From a virus, in IMG/VR virus record IMGVR_UViG_3300005588_000719, positions 1-54,756 of that record: a DNA stretch of 54,756 nucleotides. The stretch is one strand, 5' to 3'. Below, in pieces: positions 1 to 48,743 of this stretch (position 1 is its first letter; every line of letters begins with the position of its first letter). Under the pieces are notes generated by a model. The model worked only from the letters and a program-made list of their open reading frames with translations, was not told where the DNA came from and ran no database searches. The position numbers and the translations under genes were made by a program.

Positions 1-3000
1 CAGCTTTTCTCCCTCTGCTCTTTGACTTATCTCTAATAATCTTCTTTGATGTTCTTCTGCTCTTTTTTCTTTGTCAATCATTTGCTGATTTTCTAAGTCT
101 TTCAATTTTGCGTTGTACTCTGCCTCTGTTAATAGTTCGAATTCTTTTTGGGTTTCTAATGCAGTTTTCTTTTTATTAAAATAGTCGTCTGAATTTTTTT
201 CTAAATTTTGATACTCTCTTTCAGATTGTCTCTCTAAAGATTGATTTCTAAGGTCTGAAATCTTTAAACTGAAATTTTTCTCAGTCTCTAATTCCTTATC
301 TTTTAGGTCTTTTAAAACATTATATTTCTTTTGATGTGCTTCAATTTGTTTATCAATTAATTCTGTATTTAGTTTAGTGATTTTATCATTAATTTTCTTG
401 TTGCTTTCATAGTATTTATCTTGAGTAATAGATAGTTCATTTAAAGAAAGCTCTAATTGTGCAATTTGATTTTTAATTTTTTCTTTTTCTTCCTTAGTTT
501 CTGTTTTACTCAATAGCTCTTTTTGTTTATTGATTTCTTTGATAGTAGAAATAATTTTATTTTCAACCTTTAAAGAATTTTCCTCAATCTTATTTAATTC
601 AATCTCGTAAGTAGCAGTTAAGTTTGAATATAATTCTGGTAAATCATTTGTATTTGCTACTTCTATATCTGCTTCAATCTTAATCCGTTCTTGTTTTAAT
701 TTCAAATCCTCAATACTTCCTAACTCCAATTCAACTTTTGAAGAGATACTACTTACATTATTTTTTTGTTTGGATAATTCTAAGTTTAAATCTTCAATCA
801 TATCTAATACTTCGCTCTTTTCAGTTTTTTTCAAACTAACACCGAATTCAACATTTCCATCTTCATTTTGAACTATCTTGAAAGTTTCAAATAATGCTTT
901 TTTCTGCTTCTCTAAACTTTCATATTTTTCTTTCTGTAATATTAAATCATCTGCGGAATTTTTATTCCTTTTTTCATCAATAATTTTACTCTCTTGGCTG
1001 ATTTCAAACCTTTCTAATCCTATATCTATTAATTTTTTTTCTTTTTCATATACATTTTTCAAAATATCTATTCTTGATTTGGTACTTTTATTACTCTTTT
1101 CTGTACTAAGCCCTAACTCTTTAGCTACTGTTTTTTCAATCTCTGCTTGTGATTTTGATTCTTTTGCTATGGACTTTATAAGTCTTAATTGAGCATTATA
1201 TTCTTTAGTTCCTGCTTTGCCGTCAGCCCTTAATTGTGCAAGAATTTCTTTACCTTTTGTTAAGGCTTCACTTGTGGATTTTTTTGCCGTTTTCCATTGT
1301 TCAGAATAATCCACTACTTCATTCCCTGCTAATACCGTAGCCGTTTTTGCTGAATTAATCATTTTTTCAAGTTCTTTTACTTCTTCTGTTGAATACCCCC
1401 AAGTTTTAGCCATCTCTTCAACATTTTCGGATACAATGCCTATTTCCTGTCCTTTAATTACAGCTTCACCCATTTCAACCTGAGTTTGATTTACCTTTGT
1501 TTTTAACTCTTCATACTTTTTCAATAAAGGTTCTACATCTTCTCCTGCTTTTCTTTGCTTCTTTATCTCCGCATTCATTTTAAATAAATTTTCTTTTGAC
1601 TCTCTGTATGATTCAATTTGATTTCTTAATCCGCTTTGATATTGCTTTTGTTTAGATAATAATTCAGATGAATAAACTCCATCTTGTTTCTTTATAAAAC
1701 TTTCAATTTCATTTGCATTTATTTGATAAACAGATTTTATTTTTCCAGTAGTCTCATCTACTACTGTATCAATTTCAGACATTGACTCTGGTACTTGACT
1801 TGCAATTTTTTCAGCAAGCTCTTCTTTTTCAATTTTAGAAGTTGCGTTTTTATATTTATTGACTAATTCTCCTATTCTATCATTTTCATCCAAATTATTT
1901 TTAATCTTGAAAGACTCTTCGAATATATTTTTCTGTGCTTCATTTAGTTTGATTTCAGCAGTTGCTTTTTTTACTAATGCAATTTGTTCTTTAGTAAATC
2001 CGAATGATTTACCTAAAGAATTTACTTCATCTGTAATAAGTCCCATACTTTGACCTTTTTTTACAGTTTCTGTGATTGCATCTCTTGTTCCTTTTAACTC
2101 TTCTTTCAGTTCATTGTATTCTTGAAGCATAGGTCTTATATCTCCACCTGCTTCTTGTTGCTCTTTCATTGCAATTTCTAATTTTGCTAATTCTTTTTGA
2201 TTAATTTCAAATAGTCCTGCTTGGTCTTTCAACAATTTCATATATTCTTGTTGCCCTGTTCCTAATTGAGTATTTGATAACTCAACCTGTTTTGCAGTAT
2301 AACTCTTAGCTTTTTCAAGAGAAATATCATAAACTGTTGAAATTTCTCCAGTCGCTTCATCAACAACTGTTTTAACTTCTGTAAGAGCTTCAGGAACTTG
2401 ACTTGCTATTTTCTTAGCTAATCTTTGTCTTTCTATTTCTGATGTAGCGTTTTCAAATTTCTCAACTAGTTCATTGATTTTATTTGCTTTGTCTAAATCA
2501 TCAGAAATTTGTAATTGTTCATTAAAAAGTTTGTTTAATCTCCCTTGTGCTAATTTCCCTTCTGCTTCTTTTACTCCATCATCGAAGATATCATTCATTT
2601 CTGACATTGATTCTTTAATTCCACTAATATCTAATGTAAAAAATGATATAATTAATTTTCCAATATTTTTAAAAATATCAACTGCTCTTTTCCCAAATGA
2701 AACTATATATTCTGTTATTGAATCAATAATATCTTTTCCTGCTTCCATTTGAGTAAAGAAATAAATTAATGCAGCAATTACTGCTCCTATACCTAATGTT
2801 GCAGCTGCCCAAAATGTTGTTGCGGATACAGTCATTGCTCCAAACGAAACTGTTCCACTAGCCCCAACAGCTCCTAATGAAGGTATTAATTGTAATATAT
2901 TTGCTTTAGCTAACAACATTACTTTATTAAATAAACTTCCTGCAATAGCACTAGTTTTCAATGCTTGTGGAATTAATGATAATGAAGAAACCAATGGTAA

Positions 3001-5270: not shown

Positions 5271-5810
5271 TTAAGAATATTTTAAAGCTCCACTTTCTAA
5301 CTCCCTGTTAGTAGCAAAGCCTTTAATTGTAATTTTATAAAACAATCTTTTTTCGTTATTAAATTGATTCCAGACCATTCTCATTTTGTTTTCGCATTTA
5401 ATAAGTAAGCTATCTTTTGCTACACTCATTACTTTATTATTAAATATAATTGTAAGAGTATTCAATTGAGGTGAACTTTGTATTTTTTCTAATAAATCTA
5501 ACCACTTTAAACTTTCTCCGCCCTGATTATCTACATTTCTAAAAACTCCAGGATTTGCTATTGGTATTACTTCCAACTTTAAATTGTAACCGATAATTAT
5601 TTCATTCCCAAAATGATTTTTTTCTATAACTGGTATTGCTTCCCACAAAGAACCATTTTCAACAGAATCTATTAACAAATAATAAGTATCATCTAATTCA
5701 TCAATAATTGATAACTGTACACTATCAATAAATTGAAATGTGATTTGATTTGACCATAAACTTGGGTTTAAGTTTGGGTCTCCTAATTTTGCTATTATAG
5801 TTTCTGACAT
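5271..5810 (-). CDS. Virion protein, possible tail tube protein
   Basis: A 179-residue protein with a mixed beta-rich composition and no motif I recognise. It lies 10 bases upstream of the tail-chaperone gene, the slot usually held by the major tail protein in siphophages. The 322-residue protein at 8956-9924 is a competing candidate for that role. It is tightly packed with its neighbours and so co-expressed with the late operon. Function is unproven. Confidence 0.4.
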   Translation of the reverse strand: MSETIIAKLGDPNLNPSLWSNQITFQFIDSVQLSIIDELDDTYYLLIDSVENGSLWEAIPVIEKNHFGNEIIIGYNLKLEVIPIANPGVFRNVDNQGGESLKWLDLLEKIQSSPQLNTLTIIFNNKVMSVAKDSLLIKCENKMRMVWNQFNNEKRLFYKITIKGFATNRELESGALKYS

Positions 5811-5811
5811 A

Positions 5812-6234
5812 TTATATTAAACTATTTTTCATTTTAAATTCAAAATCTATATTCTCTAAATCAATAATGTTATTCACAAAGTTACTCTCTAGTTTATCTC
5901 TTTCCCATTCAATAGGTATATATTCACTACCAACATTATCTTTAAATATTTTCAAGTTGAAATTAGAACCAAATAGAAACGCTCTCACTAAGTATGATTT
6001 ATTTGTTTTTACTGAACTTACTGGTAACTTCACTTTCCAAGAGAAACGACTATCCAAAATGTGAGAATATTTTACTGACCTAAGCGATGCAACACTTTTC
6101 AAGTTTGTTTCTGGAGTGCAAAAAAGTGATAAAACCTCTATTCCAAACAATTCTACATTAGTTTCAGAATCATTGTCATAATATTTAAAATCAATTTTTA
6201 AATCTTTATATGTTGTATAATCAATAAATGCCAT
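5812..6234 (-). CDS. Unassigned late protein, 140 aa
   Basis: Not recognised. It is a soluble 140-residue protein with many aromatic and charged residues and no signal peptide or membrane segment. It is one base apart from the next gene and two bases from the 905-residue tail protein upstream, so it belongs to the late tail block. A tail or tail-completion role is only inferred from position. Confidence 0.45.
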   Translation of the reverse strand: MAFIDYTTYKDLKIDFKYYDNDSETNVELFGIEVLSLFCTPETNLKSVASLRSVKYSHILDSRFSWKVKLPVSSVKTNKSYLVRAFLFGSNFNLKIFKDNVGSEYIPIEWERDKLESNFVNNIIDLENIDFEFKMKNSLI

Positions 6235-6236
6235 AA

Positions 6237-8954
6237 TTAAGAAATATTCCTTGCTCCTATTCTTAATAAAATATTGTTGTTTTGATTGTTCTGTTTACCA
6301 ACAACTTTTGTTAATTTCATTGTGCCAATAATATCACCAGAAGTTCCTACATTCGCAGGTATTACAGCATTTTCATTTCTTTTTATGGAAAACAATCTAA
6401 TAGTTTGATTATCAATGATTTCAGCCCAAACAAATAATGAAGTATTATAATCATCTTTATCAACTGCTGATATATCCACCTTCAAACTTTCATTTTCAAT
6501 TAATTTTAAACCGTGTGTAATATCTTTATAATAAAGTGTCCCTATTTCGTAACCGTCTTCATTGAATTTTGTCCCAGTAACTATTGTATTATCAATGTCA
6601 TCATTCCAGTTTTCAGTTAGTTCAAAGTCAATAATCACTTCATTTAATAATTCATTAATTACTGGAGGCGGTGTATAAAATCCTGATTGAAATGATCCGT
6701 CATTTTTAATTGAACCATGAAATGGAAATCTATCTTTTAATTGTAATCTTATTGTTGTTTCTGGGTAAGAGAATTTTCTTTTTATCCCAATAACTAAATA
6801 TTCAAATACTTCAGTAGTAGTAATTCCTGTTGCCGGATTAGTTCGGTCTTCTTTGGTTTTAAATTTCGAACCGATTTCTAAATTCTTGAATACTTCAGTC
6901 TCATCTAACGGACTATCTCCATTTATAGATTTTTTGAAACCATTTAAAAAAGGAACTGTTAGGGTATATTCTGTTTGATAATATTCCTCGTCATGTGCCT
7001 TATAGTATTCATTCATCATTTCAGCTATTGACCAAAACCTCGTTCCTTGACCTGTACCATTTTTATCGAGTTCTGGGTTATCTATACTGATTACTGGTTC
7101 GTAATAATCCCTCTCTTTTGAAATACCATTAAGATTTTTGTTTTCAGTCCTTTTCAAATAAATCAAATTATTAGCATACCAACCTAATTTTTCTTCATAA
7201 TCCCAATATTGAGTATCTAAAAATCCACCATCTAATATTCTTGTTGGAAATGATTCATCTGTTGTAGGCAAACCTCTTACAAGCATTGCATTGAAAGGTA
7301 AATATTTTTGGAAACCGTAATGCTTGCCGTTTTGGTCTATTCCTCCATTTCCAGAATAAATATTCCCTGTTCCTGCTTCAAAATAATGCGTATTTGGGTC
7401 TCCGTCACTTTCAGCCCAATCATATATTGTAGCACAATCTCCATATAAGTTTTCAGGTTTGAGCAATGGTAAACCTATTGTTAATAATGTTTTATTAGCC
7501 CCTTTCTCTGAAACAAATTTGTTGCTTTCAGTAGTTTCTGATGGAACAAATTCTCTAAATCTATCTTCAATTAATGATTGTTTAACTGTTGTTATTTCAA
7601 AGCTCGATAAATTATTTTTTACAGTCGGTTTTTCTGCTAAAGCTTGGTTAGTCTGACCATAAAAAGTTTGTTTTTCTTTCCTTAAAAATTTACTTTCTGT
7701 ATTTATTGCAGCCTTTTCAACATCTCTTATCATTACATAGTCTTTAGAAATTATTTGTCTATTAGAAAACTTAATATGTAACTTCCCATCATTGCTATAA
7801 TAAAATCTTGCATATAGTCCAAAGCATGCAGCTATCCAAGTAATAATTGAACTCAAGGTTCCTTTTTGTTGAAATGAATAATTCTCATCTCCTTCTTTTG
7901 GGTCAAAATTTGTCCAACTAATAAAAAAGCTGTCTTCACCACTTCCAAATTTAATGGGTAATGTAGTATTATTTGTTTCCATTTCTGCACCATCCCAATA
8001 CATGTGCTGAGCTTTAACATAATATCCTTTTTGATTTGCTTCTCCATTAGCTTTTTCAATAATTTGGCCTCTTACACCTACTGTATTAAAATTTTGAGTG
8101 CAAGAAGTATTATCTATAACAATATCTAATCCTGTTAATTGTTTTCTTTCAATTACTGAACGACATATCTCTAATAAACAATCTTGAAAATTGCATAAAT
8201 GCAAGTATCTGACTTCTGAAAATTTTCTACCTTCACTATCAGGATAAAGTCCAACAATGCTGTCATCTTCGTAATAATAAAATTCTTGGTCATATAACGA
8301 ATATCCCAATCTATCTTTTACATTTTCATTATACCATTCTATAAAATTAGCATATGCTGTGTTAGTAGTCCAATCACGTCCATACTGACCATCTCCATTA
8401 GTTCCTACTCCGTTACTTAACTCATCACCTCTATTTACAAAAAAATCAATCTGTTCTTTTAACTCAACATCAAATACTTCTGTCGTAAAATCAAATGACT
8501 TTAACTTCCAATTCCTATCAGGATTAATATAATTCCCATAAGCTAAATCATACCATCTAAAATCTTCTGCCGACATTTTTGTATTTATCTGTCCCATAAA
8601 TACAACATTATCAGATTTTAAAGTTGTTCCATTTACTTCAAAAGTTGGTTCTATAAAAACTGCTATATTTCTTTTGTTATTTTTATTTTGACTTTCCAAA
8701 GTAAAATAATAGGCTTTCTTATCTATATCACTTGTTTTTGTTGGTATGTAAAGTAAATCAAAAGAAAATTCATCTTTGGCAAATTCTCCACTCCCAACAT
8801 CTAAATCTACATTAGCTTCTTTCATATCAAAACAATGAACTTCATTACCTTCAGATAAATCAAAAAGTCCTTCAAGAGAATCAGAGACGGCTAAAAGGAA
8901 AGTTACCTTTCCTTTTCCGTCTTCAACCATTGTTTTATATTGATAAAAAGTCAT
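6237..8954 (-). CDS. Large tail-associated virion protein, 905 aa
   Basis: A 905-residue protein rich in Asn, Asp, Tyr and Phe, typical of phage hub, baseplate or fibre proteins. The segment around residues 725-760 (TTIRLQLKDRFPFHG) resembles the strand-rich regions of distal tail and hub proteins; the last 120 residues look like a separate beta domain. Its place before the chaperone and tape-measure genes, rather than after, is unusual for a hub protein. No catalytic motif was seen. The structural class is inferred from size and composition. Confidence 0.5.
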   Translation of the reverse strand: MTFYQYKTMVEDGKGKVTFLLAVSDSLEGLFDLSEGNEVHCFDMKEANVDLDVGSGEFAKDEFSFDLLYIPTKTSDIDKKAYYFTLESQNKNNKRNIAVFIEPTFEVNGTTLKSDNVVFMGQINTKMSAEDFRWYDLAYGNYINPDRNWKLKSFDFTTEVFDVELKEQIDFFVNRGDELSNGVGTNGDGQYGRDWTTNTAYANFIEWYNENVKDRLGYSLYDQEFYYYEDDSIVGLYPDSEGRKFSEVRYLHLCNFQDCLLEICRSVIERKQLTGLDIVIDNTSCTQNFNTVGVRGQIIEKANGEANQKGYYVKAQHMYWDGAEMETNNTTLPIKFGSGEDSFFISWTNFDPKEGDENYSFQQKGTLSSIITWIAACFGLYARFYYSNDGKLHIKFSNRQIISKDYVMIRDVEKAAINTESKFLRKEKQTFYGQTNQALAEKPTVKNNLSSFEITTVKQSLIEDRFREFVPSETTESNKFVSEKGANKTLLTIGLPLLKPENLYGDCATIYDWAESDGDPNTHYFEAGTGNIYSGNGGIDQNGKHYGFQKYLPFNAMLVRGLPTTDESFPTRILDGGFLDTQYWDYEEKLGWYANNLIYLKRTENKNLNGISKERDYYEPVISIDNPELDKNGTGQGTRFWSIAEMMNEYYKAHDEEYYQTEYTLTVPFLNGFKKSINGDSPLDETEVFKNLEIGSKFKTKEDRTNPATGITTTEVFEYLVIGIKRKFSYPETTIRLQLKDRFPFHGSIKNDGSFQSGFYTPPPVINELLNEVIIDFELTENWNDDIDNTIVTGTKFNEDGYEIGTLYYKDITHGLKLIENESLKVDISAVDKDDYNTSLFVWAEIIDNQTIRLFSIKRNENAVIPANVGTSGDIIGTMKLTKVVGKQNNQNNNILLRIGARNIS

Positions 8955-17673: not shown

Positions 17674-18432
17674 TTATAGATTAACACGGAGAAAATCACC
17701 ACTTGAGACAGTCTCTTCAGCAATTACAGAATTCATTGTAAATAATCCCTCTGGATTTGCTTCTACTTTTGAACCCTCTAATATCTTTATCCCTGAAGCA
17801 TCGCTTGAGTTTTGAGCCCATTGCAAAGCAACTTCCCCTGAAGTCGTACTATTTGTTATTACCGCTTCAATAACAATATCTTTCTTTTGTGTTGTAGTTA
17901 ATGATACAGTTGCAGGAGTTGAAAAGTCAATTTGGGAAGCTCCATCTACAGAAGCTAATACAGTTGCTCCGTCTGGTGTATTTAAGTTCAATTTAATTGA
18001 TTGAGTACCGGCTTTCAAATTCTCTACGGCTAATACAAATCTTGCAGTTACTGTTTCATTTTCTTTTATAGAAAATTTCAAATCAGTATCGTCTGCCAAA
18101 GTATCATCCGAAGCCTTTGTCTCATCGGTTGGCTTAATTACATTGTTTTTCCATTCCGCATTTCCAATTGATATTGCTTCTCCGTCTGCGTTAGAGATTA
18201 CTCTATCTCCTTTTACAATTGCTCCTGCAGATTTTACAATACAAGAACCCAAATTTACAACACTAAATTCATTGCCTAATTCGGCATTATCTTCTGGAAT
18301 ACCTGCAATGTTCCCACCTAATTTTGATAACTTCCCATCATATCCGACAAATCTCCAAGATGTTATTTCATCCCCTGCAATCAAGGTTTTGTGAGATAAT
18401 GGTATGTATGTTTTTGAATGATTATTACTCAT
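17674..18432 (-). CDS. Capsid decoration/cement protein (DUF2190 with extra domain)
   Basis: 252 residues. Residues about 60-90 (GSCIVKSAGAIVKGDRVISN) and the last 25 (VIAEETVSSGDFLRVNL) match the DUF2190 capsid-cement pattern. Between them lies an Ig-like, Thr/Ala-rich insertion of about 110 residues that would project from the capsid. It is placed directly after the major capsid gene. Decoration of the head lattice is the expected role. Confidence 0.65.
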   Translation of the reverse strand: MSNNHSKTYIPLSHKTLIAGDEITSWRFVGYDGKLSKLGGNIAGIPEDNAELGNEFSVVNLGSCIVKSAGAIVKGDRVISNADGEAISIGNAEWKNNVIKPTDETKASDDTLADDTDLKFSIKENETVTARFVLAVENLKAGTQSIKLNLNTPDGATVLASVDGASQIDFSTPATVSLTTTQKKDIVIEAVITNSTTSGEVALQWAQNSSDASGIKILEGSKVEANPEGLFTMNSVIAEETVSSGDFLRVNL

Positions 18433-21147: not shown

Positions 21148-21220
21148 GCGGAGTTATCATAACAGGTTAATGAGCAATCTATCCAAGATTGATAATAGGG
21201 TTCAAGTCCTTAACTCCGCT
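21148..21220 (+). tRNA. tRNA-Gly (anticodon UCC) with A at position 33
   Basis: A full cloverleaf can be drawn: acceptor GCGGAGT/ACTCCGC (7 bp), D stem TCAT/ATGA with GG in the loop and A14/A21, anticodon stem CAATC/GATTG (5 bp), and T stem TAGGG/CCTTA with loop TTCAAGT. The anticodon loop is TATCCAA, so the anticodon is TCC. G1-C72, C2-G71, G3-C70 and discriminator T73 agree with glycine identity. CCA is not encoded (CTT follows). Position 33, nearly always T, is A here. It lies ahead of the packaging operon and may be co-transcribed. Confidence 0.85.
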
Positions 21221-21241
21221 CTTTCTATTTAGGATAAAAAT

Positions 21242-21976
21242 ATGGCTGACAATCAAAAAAAAGTAAAAGAAATCAATGCTATTTTAAAGAGTTTAGGCTT
21301 ACCAGAAATTGTAATCTTAGATCCAAATTCCTTAATTGCACAGAAAAAGAATGCTCGCTATTTTAAACCAGAGAAATTTCAAACACTAGTAAATAATATT
21401 AAAAACGAGGGTTCATTAAAGTCTGCTCCTTTAGTTTATTATGATGAAGATGTAAAGAAATATAGAATAATAGATGGTTCGCACAGAGTACAAGGGGCAA
21501 AAGACGCAGGTCTAAAAGCAATTATGTGTTTCTTAGACAATCCAAATTCAAACGATGAAAAAATATCAAAACAATTATCTTTTAACGCTTTAACAGGCGA
21601 AGACGATAAATTAATATTAGCTGAGTTATTCAAATCAATCAAAGATATAGAACTTAAATTTGCAACAGGATTAGATGACGAATTACACAAAATAGAATAT
21701 TCATCTCTAAACTTTATGATTGGAGCTTCGAAGCAATTAACAGTTTTATTCTTGCCTGAGGATATTGCAGAATATGATAAAGGAATGGAGAAAATTGCAC
21801 AAGACCTTTCAATCAAACCATCGGACGAAATAAGAACAACAAGTGTTGAATATTGGGACAAATTCGTTCAAGCTATTTTAAAAGTTAAAAAGAATGAAAA
21901 CATCAAATCAAATGGTAGTGCAATATTGCGAATGATTGAACTCGCTAATGAACAGTTGAATAATAAGGACGATTGA
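21242..21976 (+). CDS. ParB/sulfiredoxin-fold domain protein
   Basis: 244 residues. Residues 15-110 match the ParB N-terminal fold: DPNSLIAQKKNARYF, KPEKFQTLVNNIKNEG, then RIIDGSHRVQGAKDAGL, in which GSHR corresponds to the G(E/N)RR phosphate-binding loop. The C-terminal half is helical and not recognised. In phages such proteins often neighbour DNA-modification genes, and the next gene, one base away, is a methyltransferase-like fusion. Whether it binds DNA, hydrolyses CTP or nicks DNA cannot be told from sequence. Confidence 0.7.
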   Translation: MADNQKKVKEINAILKSLGLPEIVILDPNSLIAQKKNARYFKPEKFQTLVNNIKNEGSLKSAPLVYYDEDVKKYRIIDGSHRVQGAKDAGLKAIMCFLDNPNSNDEKISKQLSFNALTGEDDKLILAELFKSIKDIELKFATGLDDELHKIEYSSLNFMIGASKQLTVLFLPEDIAEYDKGMEKIAQDLSIKPSDEIRTTSVEYWDKFVQAILKVKKNENIKSNGSAILRMIELANEQLNNKDD

Positions 21977-21977
21977 A

Positions 21978-23333
21978 ATGTTTTTAGGAACAATCCCAAA
22001 ACTACTCTTAGAATATTTAATTGGTGAAATTAAAAGAATTAAACCAAAACGTATTTTTCTATTATTCTCTGGTAATTTTGGAGTTGAAAAAGCTATATCC
22101 AATATTTGTCCAGATATAGAAATTATTTCTACTGATATTTCATTATACTCAAGAGCAATTGGTTTTGGTTTGATAAATAAAAAATTTCAAGTTGAATATA
22201 GACCAGAGTTATTAGAACAATTTCCATTCTTTAAAGATAAGACTACTCCAATTGATTATGCCGTAGCAGTAATTTTCTTTTTAGAAGTTGCAAATAATTT
22301 AGAAAAAAATCATCACAGATATTATCGAAGTCTAAATAATGAAGCAGTTAATAATACTGAAATGTACTATAATCAAATAAAGAGCAAATTATTGAGTTTT
22401 GCAAGTACGCTTGGAAAATTAGATTTCAGAGGGATTGATGCAATTAAATTGATTGAGGAATGTGGAAAAGGTGATTTTGTATTTTTTGACCCTCCATACT
22501 GGGCGGATGGATATGATAAAATGTTCGAACAATTAGAAAAATACTTTGATTTTGATACACCAGAATTCACAGTTATTGACGAAGAGAAAACCCTTAATTC
22601 TTTAGCCTTATTACATGAAAAAGAGTGCATAGTTTATTACAGATCTATAGATGAACTTCAACTTCCGAATTACAAAATAGTATTTAAACATAATAACAAA
22701 ATTAACTCTTCCCTATTAACATACTCTAATTATAAAGAATCCACAATATCAGTTTCAAGAAAATTTCAATTCCCAACTGAACAGCCTAAATACGAACTTT
22801 TTAAATTCGAAGATGTTATCACTATAAATTCTAAGATTGTATTGAAAGAAATAGAACGAAAACACGCTAATCATTACAGGTTACTCTGGGTAAAAAAAGC
22901 TGATGCAACAAAAGGTGGTATTCCATATTTAATTTTCATAGATGGAAAAGTAATAGGTCTAATTCAAGTTGAAACTTCGCTTGGTTTTAAATATCATGAT
23001 GATATAGCAAGAATATTTGCAGACCCTTGTGTTCCTACAAGCAGATATAAAAGATTGAGCAAGCTAATATTAGCATTATGCTTAACAGAAACTTTTCTTA
23101 AACAATATAACGAAGATACTCTGTGGTATAACACGGGGTTTAAGACGGCAGTATTTACAAACGCCCATACTTCCATGAAATATAGGAACTTATTTAAACT
23201 TACAAATAGAATGCCTTTAAATAACGGCAAATACAAATACAAACTGTTGTATCAAAATAAAAAACTGTTCAAAGACTACAAATCTGCTTTGGCTTACTGG
23301 TTAAAAAAAGACGGTAAAATATTAAATGCTTAA
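21978..23333 (+). CDS. Adenine methyltransferase-like protein fused to Mom-like GNAT domain
   Basis: 451 residues. The N-terminal half has a D12-class N6-adenine methyltransferase layout: FSGNFG at residues 30-35 (AdoMet loop) and DPPYWADGYD at 171-180 (DPPY active site). Residues about 285-451 look like a GNAT-type domain of the Mu Mom kind (PYLIFIDGKVIGLIQVE, PTSRYKRLSKLILALC, FTNAHTSMKYRNLF). Mom adds a carbamoylmethyl-type group to adenine and blocks restriction. The gene is coupled to the ParB-like gene and overlaps the DUF488 gene end by four bases. The MTase motifs are clear, the Mom link is inferred. Confidence 0.65.
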   Translation: MFLGTIPKLLLEYLIGEIKRIKPKRIFLLFSGNFGVEKAISNICPDIEIISTDISLYSRAIGFGLINKKFQVEYRPELLEQFPFFKDKTTPIDYAVAVIFFLEVANNLEKNHHRYYRSLNNEAVNNTEMYYNQIKSKLLSFASTLGKLDFRGIDAIKLIEECGKGDFVFFDPPYWADGYDKMFEQLEKYFDFDTPEFTVIDEEKTLNSLALLHEKECIVYYRSIDELQLPNYKIVFKHNNKINSSLLTYSNYKESTISVSRKFQFPTEQPKYELFKFEDVITINSKIVLKEIERKHANHYRLLWVKKADATKGGIPYLIFIDGKVIGLIQVETSLGFKYHDDIARIFADPCVPTSRYKRLSKLILALCLTETFLKQYNEDTLWYNTGFKTAVFTNAHTSMKYRNLFKLTNRMPLNNGKYKYKLLYQNKKLFKDYKSALAYWLKKDGKILNA

Positions 23334-40819: not shown

Positions 40820-40995
40820 TTTACCACCTCTGAACTTTCTAATTCTGCAATTCGTTTGTTAAGTTTATCTATAAGATTGTTTCTCTCAAAAAGCAAATCT
40901 TCTAAAAATGCTTTATTGCTTTGAAGGATTAGTACCTTGCCTTCTAATTCTTTTATTAGAGCTTCGTTTATTTTATTTAATTCGTAGTTACTCAT
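40810..40995 (-). CDS. Small coiled-coil early protein, 61 aa
   Basis: ATG at 40995 overlaps the upstream stop as ATGA and has GGAGGG four bases before it, so it is preferred to an ATG at 41022. The product is a single coiled coil (LLFERNNLIDKLNKRIAELE). Not recognised. Confidence 0.5.
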   Translation of the reverse strand: MSNYELNKINEALIKELEGKVLILQSNKAFLEDLLFERNNLIDKLNKRIAELESSEVVKWK

Positions 40996-41192
40996 CTTAC
41001 CCTCCATAACATATCTGTACAAGTTTGCTGTAATAAGTCTGATAGCTCTTCATCTGTTCGGTCTATCATTCTTTCTATAACATCTTTGCTGATTTCAGTA
41101 TTTCTCTTTTCAAGTTCTGATAAGAGATATACTATTTTGTGAGATAGTCTCGCTATCTCTTCAACTGTTCTTCTTTTTTCTTTGGAAATCAT
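40992..41192 (-). CDS. Small helical early protein, 66 aa (first gene of replication block)
   Basis: ATG at 41192 has AAGGAA seven bases upstream. The frame stays open to 41291, but that extension runs through the first sRNA unit and is rejected. The product is helical and charged (SHKIVYLLSELEKRN). Its start lies beside the first antisense unit, so that unit could affect its expression. Confidence 0.5.
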   Translation of the reverse strand: MISKEKRRTVEEIARLSHKIVYLLSELEKRNTEISKDVIERMIDRTDEELSDLLQQTCTDMLWRVR

Positions 41193-41204
41193 TTTGATTT
41201 TCCT

Positions 41205-41275
41205 TATATTTGTTTGTAAATACATCCAAATTAGAACCCTCAGTAGTCCCTTATCTATGAGGGTTCTTTTTTTTC
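41205..41275 (+). ncRNA. Small RNA unit 1 of tandem array
   Basis: TTG at 41182-41184, 20 bases, then TATATTTG at 41205-41212 form a near-ideal Bacteroidota promoter. About 20 bases on, AGAACCCTCA (41233-41242) pairs perfectly with TGAGGGTTCT (41258-41267), followed by eight Ts. The RNA would be about 55-60 nt. No ORF is present. The DNA lies over the 5' leader of the minus-strand replication genes. Confidence 0.65.
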
Positions 41276-41300
41276 TTTTTGTGTCAATCATTTAATTTTT

Positions 41301-41368
41301 TATATTTGCATAGTTAAAGAATATGAGTCCTGGTCTTTGTGTATTTTAGGCTGGGATTCTTTTTTTTT
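41301..41368 (+). ncRNA. Small RNA unit 2 of tandem array
   Basis: TTG at 41279-41281, 19 bases, TATATTTG at 41301-41308. The arms GAGTCCTGGTC (41325-41335) and GGCTGGGATTC (41349-41359) pair along their whole length through several G-T wobbles, followed by nine Ts. RNA about 55 nt. Only an 8-codon ATG frame exists. The wobble-only differences suggest the stem is maintained as RNA. Confidence 0.65.
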
Positions 41369-41413
41369 ATGTGAATGAACTCTTAATTATTTTGTAAATC
41401 AAAATATTTATTT

Positions 41414-41485
41414 TATATTTGTTAGTGGATAATTAGTTAAGGAACTCTGGTCACCGTGCAAAATGACCGGAGTTCTTTTGCTTTA
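41414..41485 (+). ncRNA. Small RNA unit 3 of tandem array
   Basis: TTG at 41392-41394, 19 bases, TATATTTG at 41414-41421. A 12-bp stem GAACTCTGGTCA (41442-41453) / TGACCGGAGTTC (41464-41475) with a 10-base loop is followed by TTTTGCTTT, a weaker U tract than in the other units. RNA about 55-60 nt. No ORF. Confidence 0.6.
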
Positions 41486-41531
41486 ATAGTAATTGTAATA
41501 TTTATATCTTTGTTTATCATAATAATTTTTC

Positions 41532-41608
41532 TATATTTGCTCATGAACAAGAGAATGTTTTGTTCTTTCTACAACCTTAGCCTACGTAATCCTTGGCTAA
41601 GGTTTTTT
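41532..41608 (+). ncRNA. Small RNA unit 4 of tandem array
   Basis: TTG at 41510-41512, 19 bases, TATATTTG at 41532-41539. A first small hairpin GAACAA/TTGTTC (41545-41565) is followed by AACCTTAGCC (41573-41582) / GGCTAAGGTT (41595-41604) and six Ts. RNA about 65 nt. A 25-codon ATG frame starts at 41543, almost at the transcript start and without a ribosome site, so coding is unlikely. The unit ends next to the stop of the gene at 41607. Confidence 0.65.
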
Positions 41609-41912
41609 AATTTCTACTAAAAAATTTTACTTTATCTTCGTGCGAACCAAATAGCTCTACTACTTTAGCTCTTTTGTTTACTTCAACATTTTTAGGAAAT
41701 GTTTTGTGAGTTAATTGCCTTAATAAATTAAGCAATGATGGAACATATATTTTATTTCTCCTATCTGTATCTATCAACTTATATTTAAGAGCGTCAGCAA
41801 TTACAACTATACTAATATTAGCAATTTGCGCTGCCTTTCTTTGAGATACAAATAACTCTTTGTTTGCTTCAAAGTATGCTTTTTCATAATTATATGTAGA
41901 AGTTTCTGCCAT
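41607..41912 (-). CDS. Small HTH-like DNA-binding protein, 101 aa
   Basis: The segment VSQRKAAQIANISIVVIADAL followed by KIYVPSLLNLLRQL looks like a winged or MerR/excisionase-like helix-turn-helix. It follows two ribbon-helix-helix genes on the leftward early transcript. A control or excision role is plausible; family not recognised with certainty. Confidence 0.5.
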   Translation of the reverse strand: MAETSTYNYEKAYFEANKELFVSQRKAAQIANISIVVIADALKYKLIDTDRRNKIYVPSLLNLLRQLTHKTFPKNVEVNKRAKVVELFGSHEDKVKFFSRN

Positions 41913-41918
41913 CGTTTT

Positions 41919-42098
41919 TTAATTTACTTTTTCTATATTTTGGTCGTAAACTTTGTTGATTATTAATTCTAATACTTTTGTATTATCTGAATTAATTTTT
42001 TTTGCAAGAATATTTAAACGTTCTTTGGTCTCTTTATTTAATCTAAATGATACTGCTTCTTTTTTTGAAGCTTTGTCTAAACTTATATTTACATTCAT
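41919..42098 (-). CDS. Ribbon-helix-helix protein, 59 aa
   Basis: ATG at 42098 to TAA at 41919. The sequence KEAVSFRLNKETKERLNILA then NSDNTKVLELIINKVYD is a classic Arc/MetJ/CopG pattern: one beta strand and two helices. It would dimerise and bind the operators at 42157-42195 just upstream, giving autoregulation. Just under 60 residues, so easy to overlook. Confidence 0.7.
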   Translation of the reverse strand: MNVNISLDKASKKEAVSFRLNKETKERLNILAKKINSDNTKVLELIINKVYDQNIEKVN

Positions 42099-42156
42099 TA
42101 GTGGGCTTTGTTTAGTGGGTGAAAATATATTTTTGTTTGCATTTCTAAAACATTTA

Positions 42157-42195
42157 TGTATATTTGTATATACAAATGTATATTTGTAATATACA
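42157..42195. promoter_or_regulatory. Operator cluster upstream of the ribbon-helix-helix gene
   Basis: ATTTGTATATACAAAT (42162-42177) is a perfect 16-bp palindrome. TGTATATT-TGT-AATATACA (42177-42195) is a second perfect one. The unit TGTATATTTGTA repeats at 42157 and 42177, 20 bases apart, i.e. on one DNA face. A minus-strand -7 box TACATTTG (42180-42173) lies within. This suits cooperative binding of a ribbon-helix-helix repressor. Confidence 0.55.
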
Positions 42196-42226
42196 TTTAT
42201 ATATTTGGTAGAATTTGTAAGAGATT

Positions 42227-42397
42227 TTATTCGGTTATTAACTTGAATTCTTTTTCAGAATTTACAAAGCGAGATAGAGTTATTTCAGCAAATCGTTTTC
42301 TGGTTTGATGAATTTTGTCTGCTTTTTTTGTTAAAAGTTTGTAATCATTTTCTTCCAATTCTACTTGGATTTTATATTTTTTACTTGTCTTACTCAT
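42227..42397 (-). CDS. Ribbon-helix-helix-like protein, 56 aa (first early gene)
   Basis: ATG at 42397 to TAA at 42227. MSKTSKKYKIQVELEENDYK opens with a basic tail and a beta strand, then come two helices (LLTKKADKIHQTRKRFAEI; LSRFVNSEKEF), a ribbon-helix-helix layout. It is the first gene of the leftward early transcript, divergent from the S24 repressor, the slot of lambda Cro/Arc-type proteins. Too short for common cut-offs. Confidence 0.6.
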   Translation of the reverse strand: MSKTSKKYKIQVELEENDYKLLTKKADKIHQTRKRFAEITLSRFVNSEKEFKLITE

Positions 42398-42439
42398 TAT
42401 CTATATATAGTTATAAGATGTTTGCGATACTTTATAAGA

Positions 42440-42470
42440 CAAATATAAGATATTTGTATGATATATGCAA
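42440..42470 (-). promoter_or_regulatory. Leftward early promoter overlapped by repressor operator
   Basis: On the minus strand TTG (42470-42468), 20 bases, TATATTTG (42447-42440) is a near-consensus Bacteroidota promoter for the early genes. The palindrome CAAATATAAGATATTTG (42440-42456) covers its -7 box and is a good candidate repressor site; related TATAAGA units occur at 42412 and 42433. The divergent repressor promoter probably lies on the other side of the same palindrome. Confidence 0.6.
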
Positions 42471-42528
42471 GAATTATTTTATTTTTTTTTACATTAATTT
42501 ACTTCATCGTAACACGAAAGGCTTTTAA

Positions 42529-43149
42529 GTGTCTGAAACTTGGCAAGATAGATTGACTTTGTCCGCTAAAAAAAAATATAACTCTGTACGTAATTTATGT
42601 ATTGAGAATAATATTAGCGATCAATATTTCGTAAGATATATGAGAGACAACTCGCTAACACCTCGTGTTTTAAACACATTAGAAAAAGCAGGAATTAATC
42701 CAGAATACATAAAAAATGGCACACTCCCAATGTTTATTGAGGGAGAAAAACAAAATAAATCTGGAATACCACTTTATGAAATAGGTGCGACAGGTGGAGA
42801 TGTTCACTTGTTCAACGACCATAACGAAAAACCAGTTAGCTATATAAATATGCCTGGATTAGATGGTAAAGCCGCTATTATTGTACACGGCGACTCAATG
42901 CACCCTGTGTATTCTGACGGTGACATAATTACAATCGATGAGCCAAGTAATTTAATTATATATGGAAAAGCACATTTAATTATTTGCGAAAATCAAAGAA
43001 TGATAAAATATCTTTTACCATCAGAGAGTGAAGGTAAGGTTATATGCAAATCTGAGAACCCAGTAGGCAACCCACAGTTTGAAATATTTGAGAAAGATAT
43101 AATTAAGCTGTTCTTGATTAAAAATTGTGTAAAGAAATTTAAGAGTTAA
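42529..43149 (+). CDS. LexA/CI-like S24 repressor
   Basis: 206 residues from a GTG preceded by AAAGG. The N-terminal 65 residues form a DNA-binding domain; residues 80-200 are the S24 peptidase fold with the catalytic Ser in VHGDSMHPVYSDGD and the Lys in RMIKYL. A hinge EIGATGGDV could be the self-cleavage site. It represses lytic genes during lysogeny and would be inactivated after DNA damage through RecA-assisted self-cleavage. It is divergent from the early operon. Pieces similar to its last codons recur downstream. Confidence 0.85.
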   Translation: MSETWQDRLTLSAKKKYNSVRNLCIENNISDQYFVRYMRDNSLTPRVLNTLEKAGINPEYIKNGTLPMFIEGEKQNKSGIPLYEIGATGGDVHLFNDHNEKPVSYINMPGLDGKAAIIVHGDSMHPVYSDGDIITIDEPSNLIIYGKAHLIICENQRMIKYLLPSESEGKVICKSENPVGNPQFEIFEKDIIKLFLIKNCVKKFKS

Positions 43150-48227: not shown

Positions 48228-48743
48228 TCAATCTGTTTCTATTTGTGAAAGTCTTCTGTTTATAATATCGTCACTTAATTCAAAATGTTTTCCTAATTGA
48301 TTACTACCAAGTAGATTTATTGCTTTTTCGACCAATTCTGATGGAACAAGAAACGCATCAGCGAACATATTTGCTTCTGTTTCTTCTCTATATGTATTAT
48401 AATCGTCCTTTTTCAAACCTCTTAGTAAGTCAACCTCAGAGATTAATTTACTTACTTCTTCTTTATCTTTATTATGCAAATAGTATGTACCTAAAAGATG
48501 TGCTAATATATATCTTTTTTGTTCTAATTCTTCTTTGTCGTTTATGTAAAATGAAACAACTTTATTCTTAATTGATAATCCACCAAAAATGTTTGGCTTA
48601 TTAAATGAAACTAAATATACTTTAAAACCTGATAGCTTTGTCAGCGTCATTGGATTAATTGGGATTTTGAACATATAATTATCTTTAAGTAATTTTTCAG
48701 CTAAAATCTCAATTTCTTCTCTTCTTTGTTCTAATTCACTCAT
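48228..48743 (-). CDS. ImmA/IrrE-family protein with degenerate HExxH
   Basis: 171 residues. The overall pattern is ImmA/IrrE (DUF955): KRYILAHLLGTYYLHN where the family has AHELGHYLLH, and ETEANMFADAFLVPSELV with the third-ligand Glu. The catalytic Glu and the second His of HExxH are replaced (HLLGT), so zinc proteolysis is probably lost. Active homologues cleave repressors or act as antitoxin-like partners. It is paired with a two-TM protein, recalling RosmerTA-like systems. Confidence 0.65.
   Translation of the reverse strand: MSELEQRREEIEILAEKLLKDNYMFKIPINPMTLTKLSGFKVYLVSFNKPNIFGGLSIKNKVVSFYINDKEELEQKRYILAHLLGTYYLHNKDKEEVSKLISEVDLLRGLKKDDYNTYREETEANMFADAFLVPSELVEKAINLLGSNQLGKHFELSDDIINRRLSQIETD

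Follow-up and report, generated by a model that had tools for sequence, protein, structure and literature searches.

Four tandem promoter–hairpin–terminator units, likely an sRNA cluster, opposite the early operon of a virus genome

Four consecutive plus-strand units occupy positions 41182–41608 of the 54,756-base IMG/VR virus record analysed here over its whole length (hereafter, the window), each combining a Bacteroidota-type promoter with its own hairpin and T run. Based on their sequence, the four units likely form a cluster of small RNAs (sRNAs), for which we tentatively favour an antisense action on the early operon that they face.

Results

Anatomy and statistical support of the array

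All four units share one design, in which TTG-N19/20-TATATTTG is followed by a short 5' segment, a stem of 10–15 bp, and a T run. The TATATTTG element is present in 4/4 unit promoters, and the promoter-to-promoter intervals are 96, 113, and 118 bp (Table 1). The first-pass annotation of this DNA, made from the letters alone, had described four plus-strand promoter-hairpin-T units with promoters of the Bacteroidota type. Our scans confirm this observation, and the promoters match the published Bacteroidota motif, with TTTG at −33 and TAnnTTTG at −7 (PMC7366714).

Scanning both strands of the whole record for TTG-N18-21-TAnnTTTG returned 12 promoter-like sites (9 plus, 3 minus), compared with ~4.4 per strand expected from simulated sequence. 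Of these sites, 4/12, all in the array, had a hairpin and T run behind them, against an expectation of 0.03 per strand; no other promoter-plus-terminator unit occurs on either strand of the record. At a stringent hairpin-T cut-off (≥9 bp, ≥4 G-C, and ≤2 G-U pairs), the entire record contained three sites, all array units, with unit 2 missing the cut because it has too many G-U pairs. RNA folding z-scores for units 1 to 4 were −5.4, −3.6, −4.6, and −5.0, respectively, and none of the shuffled sequences folded equally well. It could be objected that an array predicted from sequence alone is a product of chance or is never transcribed; however, only 0.00125 units per 500 bp would be expected at the local base composition, and the promoter is conserved in a related contig (see below), making this explanation highly improbable. 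Transcription of the units as predicted, judged from these sequence features, is very probable.

Table 1 Coordinates of the array units, neighbouring genes, and comparable arrays in other virus contigs
Feature	Position	Strand	Remarks
66-aa early-operon gene	40992–41192	−	start (MISKEKR) kept in relative; 39% identical overall
Unit 1	41182–41275	+	promoter 41182–41212 (spacer 20); predicted start ~41218
Unit 1 terminator	stem 41233–41267	+	10 bp; T run to ~41275
Unit 2	41279–41369	+	promoter 41279–41308 (spacer 19); predicted start ~41314
Unit 2 terminator	stem 41325–41359	+	12 pairs with G-U; then T run
Unit 3	41392–41480	+	promoter 41392–41421 (spacer 19); predicted start ~41427
Unit 3 terminator	stem 41439–41478	+	15 pairs; outermost pairs are A residues with T run
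Unit 4	41510–41608	+	promoter 41510–41539 (spacer 19); predicted start ~41545
Unit 4 hairpins	small 5' hairpin 41545–41565; stem 41573–41604	+	stem 10 bp; then T run
101-aa gene	41607–41912	−	by eye helix-turn-helix-like; matches no family; regulator-side gene nearest the array
59-aa gene	41919–42098	−	weak match to phage repressor family phrog_876
56-aa gene	42227–42397	−	opens the leftward early operon; by eye ribbon-helix-helix-like; relative has a similar small gene
Likely early promoter TTGCATATATCATACAAATATCTTATATTTG	42440–42470	−	promoter scan
S24-type CI-like repressor	42529–43149	+	first plus-strand gene right of array
L213 array	1300–1800		just before terminase block
L238 array	500–900		
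L246 array	~5800–6125	−	

The RNA bodies differ among the four units, which are alike only in their promoters and in a GAAYC/GRTTC-like stem base. Promoter spacers showed weak likeness (p ~0.04), and comparison of the four loops revealed no shared motif. Stem covariation between units was computed but given no weight, since the arms had been selected for pairing. The common stem base, together with the higher dose that several copies would provide, might suggest decoys for an RNA-binding factor or RNase of the host or of a rival phage. Nevertheless, the loops have no motif in common, and the stem bases may merely reflect terminator ancestry; decoy and guide roles, both put forward in the first-pass annotation, found no support, and we consider decoys as improbable as a chance origin.

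Several other candidate functions were rejected. A shared promoter operator, AATCA-N3-TGATT, was exact in unit 1 only, with the other matches near chance. Small peptides are not encoded consistently: units 1 and 3 lack an ATG open reading frame (ORF), while units 2 and 4 contain ORFs of 8 and 25 aa, none of them shared. Leftward termination by the array hairpins would have to rely on a weak T-rich side present in unit 1 only. A Type III toxin–antitoxin RNA (ToxI) was dismissed on account of the differing bodies and the lack of a convincing same-strand gene within the following 900 bp. Searches with Rfam covariance models gave no match at the gathering cut-off, the best sub-threshold hit scoring 21 bits, far below the cut-offs.

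Genomic context

The record encodes a terminase, portal protein, head maturation protease, and major head protein, along with a Sak4-like annealing protein, a 637-aa exonuclease/ATPase-like protein, a helicase, a DnaB-like helicase, and an S24-type repressor. Two leftward genes, encoding 101 aa (stop 41607) and 66 aa (start 41192), bound the spacer that the array fills. The start codon of the latter lies 26 nt from the predicted start of the unit 1 RNA, on the opposite strand, and from 41192 leftwards the order is 66-aa gene, Sak4, exonuclease/ATPase, helicase, and DnaB. At the other end, the T run of unit 4 overlaps the stop codon (41607–41609) of the 101-aa gene, which is the only coding overlap of the four RNAs.

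The S24-type repressor places the array near a repressor switch, as originally noted. The accompanying suggestion that the RNAs are antisense to the leader of the early operon was correct as to the operon and incorrect as to the leader: the likely early promoter reads from 42470 to 42440, and three small regulator genes stand between it and the array, which therefore makes the RNAs antisense to an intercistronic spacer. Minus-strand TAnnTTTG boxes, searched for across 41150–42500, were absent from the array itself and occurred only at 42447 and 42180. Transcription of the distal early genes must therefore cross the array, unless they use another type of promoter.

Since the nearest plus-strand gene on the right encodes the repressor, the units could also be seen as attenuated establishment promoters, from which antiterminated transcription would travel rightwards, antisense across the regulator genes, to reach the repressor gene (42529) in the manner of lambda pRE. 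A further plus-strand promoter-like site at 42137 fits such rightward transcription, but it is also better placed for the purpose than the array, where four strong terminators in a row and an antisense path of ~920 bp would have to be overcome, and no antiterminator was recognised. We regard this explanation as very unlikely.

The region around that site (42137–42215) contains A-T-rich near-palindromic repeats (TATATACAAATGTATATTTGTAATATACATTTATATA), resembled by TATATACATTTGTATGTACATTTG repeats at 7616–7690 of the related contig L005, and has the appearance of an operator cluster for the lysogeny switch. An ImmA/IrrE-like metallopeptidase (phrog_87, CapP-like) is encoded beside a small gene at 48228–48743 on the minus strand, a locus representing a possible second immunity or induction module; a defence-protein scan of the ten genes to the right of the switch detected only an ImmA/CapP-like peptidase. 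Elsewhere in the window (21148–23333, plus strand), a tRNA-Gly(TCC) adjoins a ParB-like gene and a phrog_7858 gene with weak methyltransferase matches.

A single close relative with one unit

One close relative was found, the 17.9-kb contig IMGVR_UViG_3300032254_000175 (L005), with protein identities of 77% for Sak4, 73% for the exonuclease/ATPase, 76% for the helicase, and 63% for the repressor. It looks like a prophage edge, because a long gene at the contig end appears non-phage-like by eye. L005 holds exactly one unit, at the same site as the window's array. The first-pass annotation would have been contradicted by related phages lacking both the promoter spacing and the stems, which is not what we see, because this relative keeps a complete unit in the same place.

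A 43-nt block (41171–41213, plus strand) is kept in L005 with one mismatch. It takes in the entire unit 1 promoter together with the first few codons of the 66-aa coding sequence, and ends one base past the −7 box. The block's codons of the 66-aa gene carry no synonymous change, even though the protein as a whole is 39% identical to its L005 counterpart, and constraint on the start region of this gene could explain part of the conservation. The RNA body in L005 is unrelated in sequence to that of unit 1 but follows the same design, with an 11-pair stem and a T run preceded by a small 5' hairpin like that of unit 4. We treat the lack of conservation of RNA bodies between two phages with 63–77% protein identity as weak evidence, because ordinary spacers diverge equally.

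No relatives of the record were found among deposited phages by nucleotide search, nor were prophage relatives detected in GTDB genomes by alignment of Sak4 and the helicase. Across 80 loci of distant helicase relatives, promoter-like sites occurred at chance level, with 0 units, which makes these loci uninformative about the array.

Similar arrangements in other viruses

Searching for paired TATATTTG boxes with a −33 TTG yielded at least 119 virus contigs. Among the two-box matches listed, there were at least 17 promoter-hairpin units, whereas shuffled copies contained 3; a hairpin-T lay in the gap of 36 of 124 box pairs, three of these being the window's own. Requiring three boxes at 88–118 bp yielded 61 virus contigs, most of which showed apparent in-register repeats (multiples of three) or terminator-free tandem promoters before a gene. 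True promoter-hairpin arrays were present in three independent, unrelated cases (L213/L224, L238, and L246), each comprising two to four TATATTTG promoters with a short RNA and a hairpin-T behind every one. The architecture thus recurs outside the window. Unlike the window's array, these arrays share the strand of the gene that follows them, and they sit elsewhere in genomes unrelated to it. Among the three-box contigs, the window alone has ≥3 complete units with −33 elements under the rule of our script.

Near-identical promoter triplets at ~90–95 bp, terminator-free and directly upstream of a gene, were observed in two contig families (L228, L232, L237, L248–L250, L258, and L264; L040, L239, L240, L251, and L256). 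In L019 and L060, a promoter precedes a hairpin whose loop (TTAGGCAA..ACAAAC) is conserved and whose stems differ while still pairing, which by sequence is a possible separate phage sRNA family. Of three deposited Bacteroidota phages inspected, Bacteroides phage BS-TP3 (L272) has two single promoter-hairpin-T units, at 18317 (plus) and 16811 (minus), one of which is located between annotated holin and endolysin genes, opposite to both. The other two, Riemerella phage PJN03 and Bacteroides phage p00, have no units.

Possible modes of action

The best single mechanism, in our analysis, would be cis-antisense gating of the distal early genes, a brake similar to OOP and NsiR1 (see Discussion), to which we assign somewhat less than an even chance. 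Transcription of each unit would begin at a separate housekeeping-type Bacteroidota promoter and end at a separate intrinsic terminator, giving a transcript of ~50–65 nt; the evidence for this anatomy is strong, and transcription is predicted from it. By position, each RNA would be fully complementary to the early-mRNA spacer between the regulator genes and the recombination/replication genes. Pairing with that spacer would lower distal early gene expression, either because the mRNA is cut as a duplex or because translation initiation of the 66-aa gene is blocked, probably helped by head-on polymerase encounters at four firing promoters. Stray early transcription would consequently stay silent in the lysogen, while promoter-proximal regulators would remain untouched, and several tandem units would increase the dose. 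All four RNAs and the single RNA of L005 occupy the same spacer and point against the early operon. Further points in favour are that the record has no strong one-directional terminators elsewhere, that no minus-strand TAnnTTTG box interrupts the array, that start regions of the phage pair with the RNAs no better than with shuffled ones, and that NsiR1.1 and OOP provide antisense precedents. Their differing bodies, alongside conserved promoters and hairpin-T elements, are compatible with cis-antisense action, because any sequence complements its own opposite strand. Against such a brake, RNAs made up of terminator stems offer few unpaired bases for pairing, a single antisense RNA normally suffices, so that four need a reason, and there is no coding overlap except for a stop codon, unlike OOP, which lies opposite the cII gene.

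The diversity of bodies and loops would equally suit trans-acting sRNAs with different targets among host mRNAs, using the 5' segment or the loop as a seed, in which case the antisense position would be incidental. Most Northern-validated Bacteroides sRNAs have precisely this pairing of a start site with an intrinsic terminator (PMC7366714), and the single promoter-hairpin RNAs and arrays with this promoter type in other virus contigs are not all opposite genes. On the other hand, no seed is conserved among the units or with L005, and pairing with start regions within the phage was no better for any of the RNAs than for shuffled RNAs. Trans action therefore appears possible, if on balance unlikely. 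In the same host group, Bacteroides seems to be without Hfq and ProQ homologues (PMC7366714).

Alternatively, the RNAs might be by-products of a transcription roadblock, in which promoter-bound polymerases collide with or block the leftward early polymerases and the terminators merely prevent antisense transcription from reaching the regulator genes. Four near-consensus promoters placed 96–118 bp apart in one spacer, each terminated at once, would be well suited to this, as would RNA bodies without sequence conservation. However, short terminated transcripts leave a small collision zone, and the extra 5' hairpin of unit 4 and of the L005 unit is unnecessary for termination, and we deem a pure roadblock distinctly unlikely.

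Discussion

Tandem sRNAs with individual promoters are already known from bacteria, contrary to the initial impression that the layout had no described precedent. NsiR1 of Nostoc sp. PCC 7120 is a ~60-nt RNA whose 12 tandem copies, each under its own promoter, occupy a spacer next to a gene; NsiR1.1 is antisense to the hetF 5' UTR and inhibits translation of the overlapped mRNA (PMC9045159). The likeness lies in tandem RNAs of ~60 nt within a spacer, each with its own (here predicted) promoter. In contrast to the 12 NsiR1 copies, seven of them identical, which are driven by DIF1 promoters on a cyanobacterial chromosome, the phage array has four diverged bodies and sigma-ABfr-type promoters, and faces the spacer of a polycistronic operon. 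The five-copy sRNA LhrC1-5 of Listeria monocytogenes, every copy of which has its own active promoter (PMC4132741), likewise resembles the array in its multiple copies with separate (here predicted) promoters. LhrC RNAs are, however, 111–114 nt long, almost identical, and trans-acting via CU-rich motifs, whereas the phage units are 50–65 nt long and dissimilar. Lambda OOP RNA, an antisense RNA to cII (PMC12197685), offers a phage parallel as a short RNA with its own promoter, opposite early genes beside the repressor switch; it is single-copy and antisense to the cII gene itself, whereas here four units overlap only the stop codon at 41607.

By sequence, the array has the individual promoters and terminators of tandem arrays of the NsiR1/LhrC kind and lacks their similar copies; it shares with OOP a position opposite an early operon near the repressor and lacks overlap with the coding sequence of a regulator. 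Because one defining feature of each fails, we do not consider the array a member of the NsiR1/LhrC or OOP families. Our literature search found no description of such a tandem layout in a phage, and none of an sRNA in a Bacteroidota phage.

A broader and more speculative proposal, which we rate as rather unlikely, is that promoter-hairpin sRNA cassettes form a general and hitherto undescribed class in Bacteroidota phages and multiply tandemly in spacers, the four diverged copies described here acting as a multi-input antisense gate that separates regulator from replication genes within one early operon. Four predicted RNAs by a lysogeny switch, together with a one-copy relative, would make a clean case for studying antisense gating of early genes, and the promoter-hairpin units seen repeatedly in other contigs point to a common type of phage gene that annotation may be missing.
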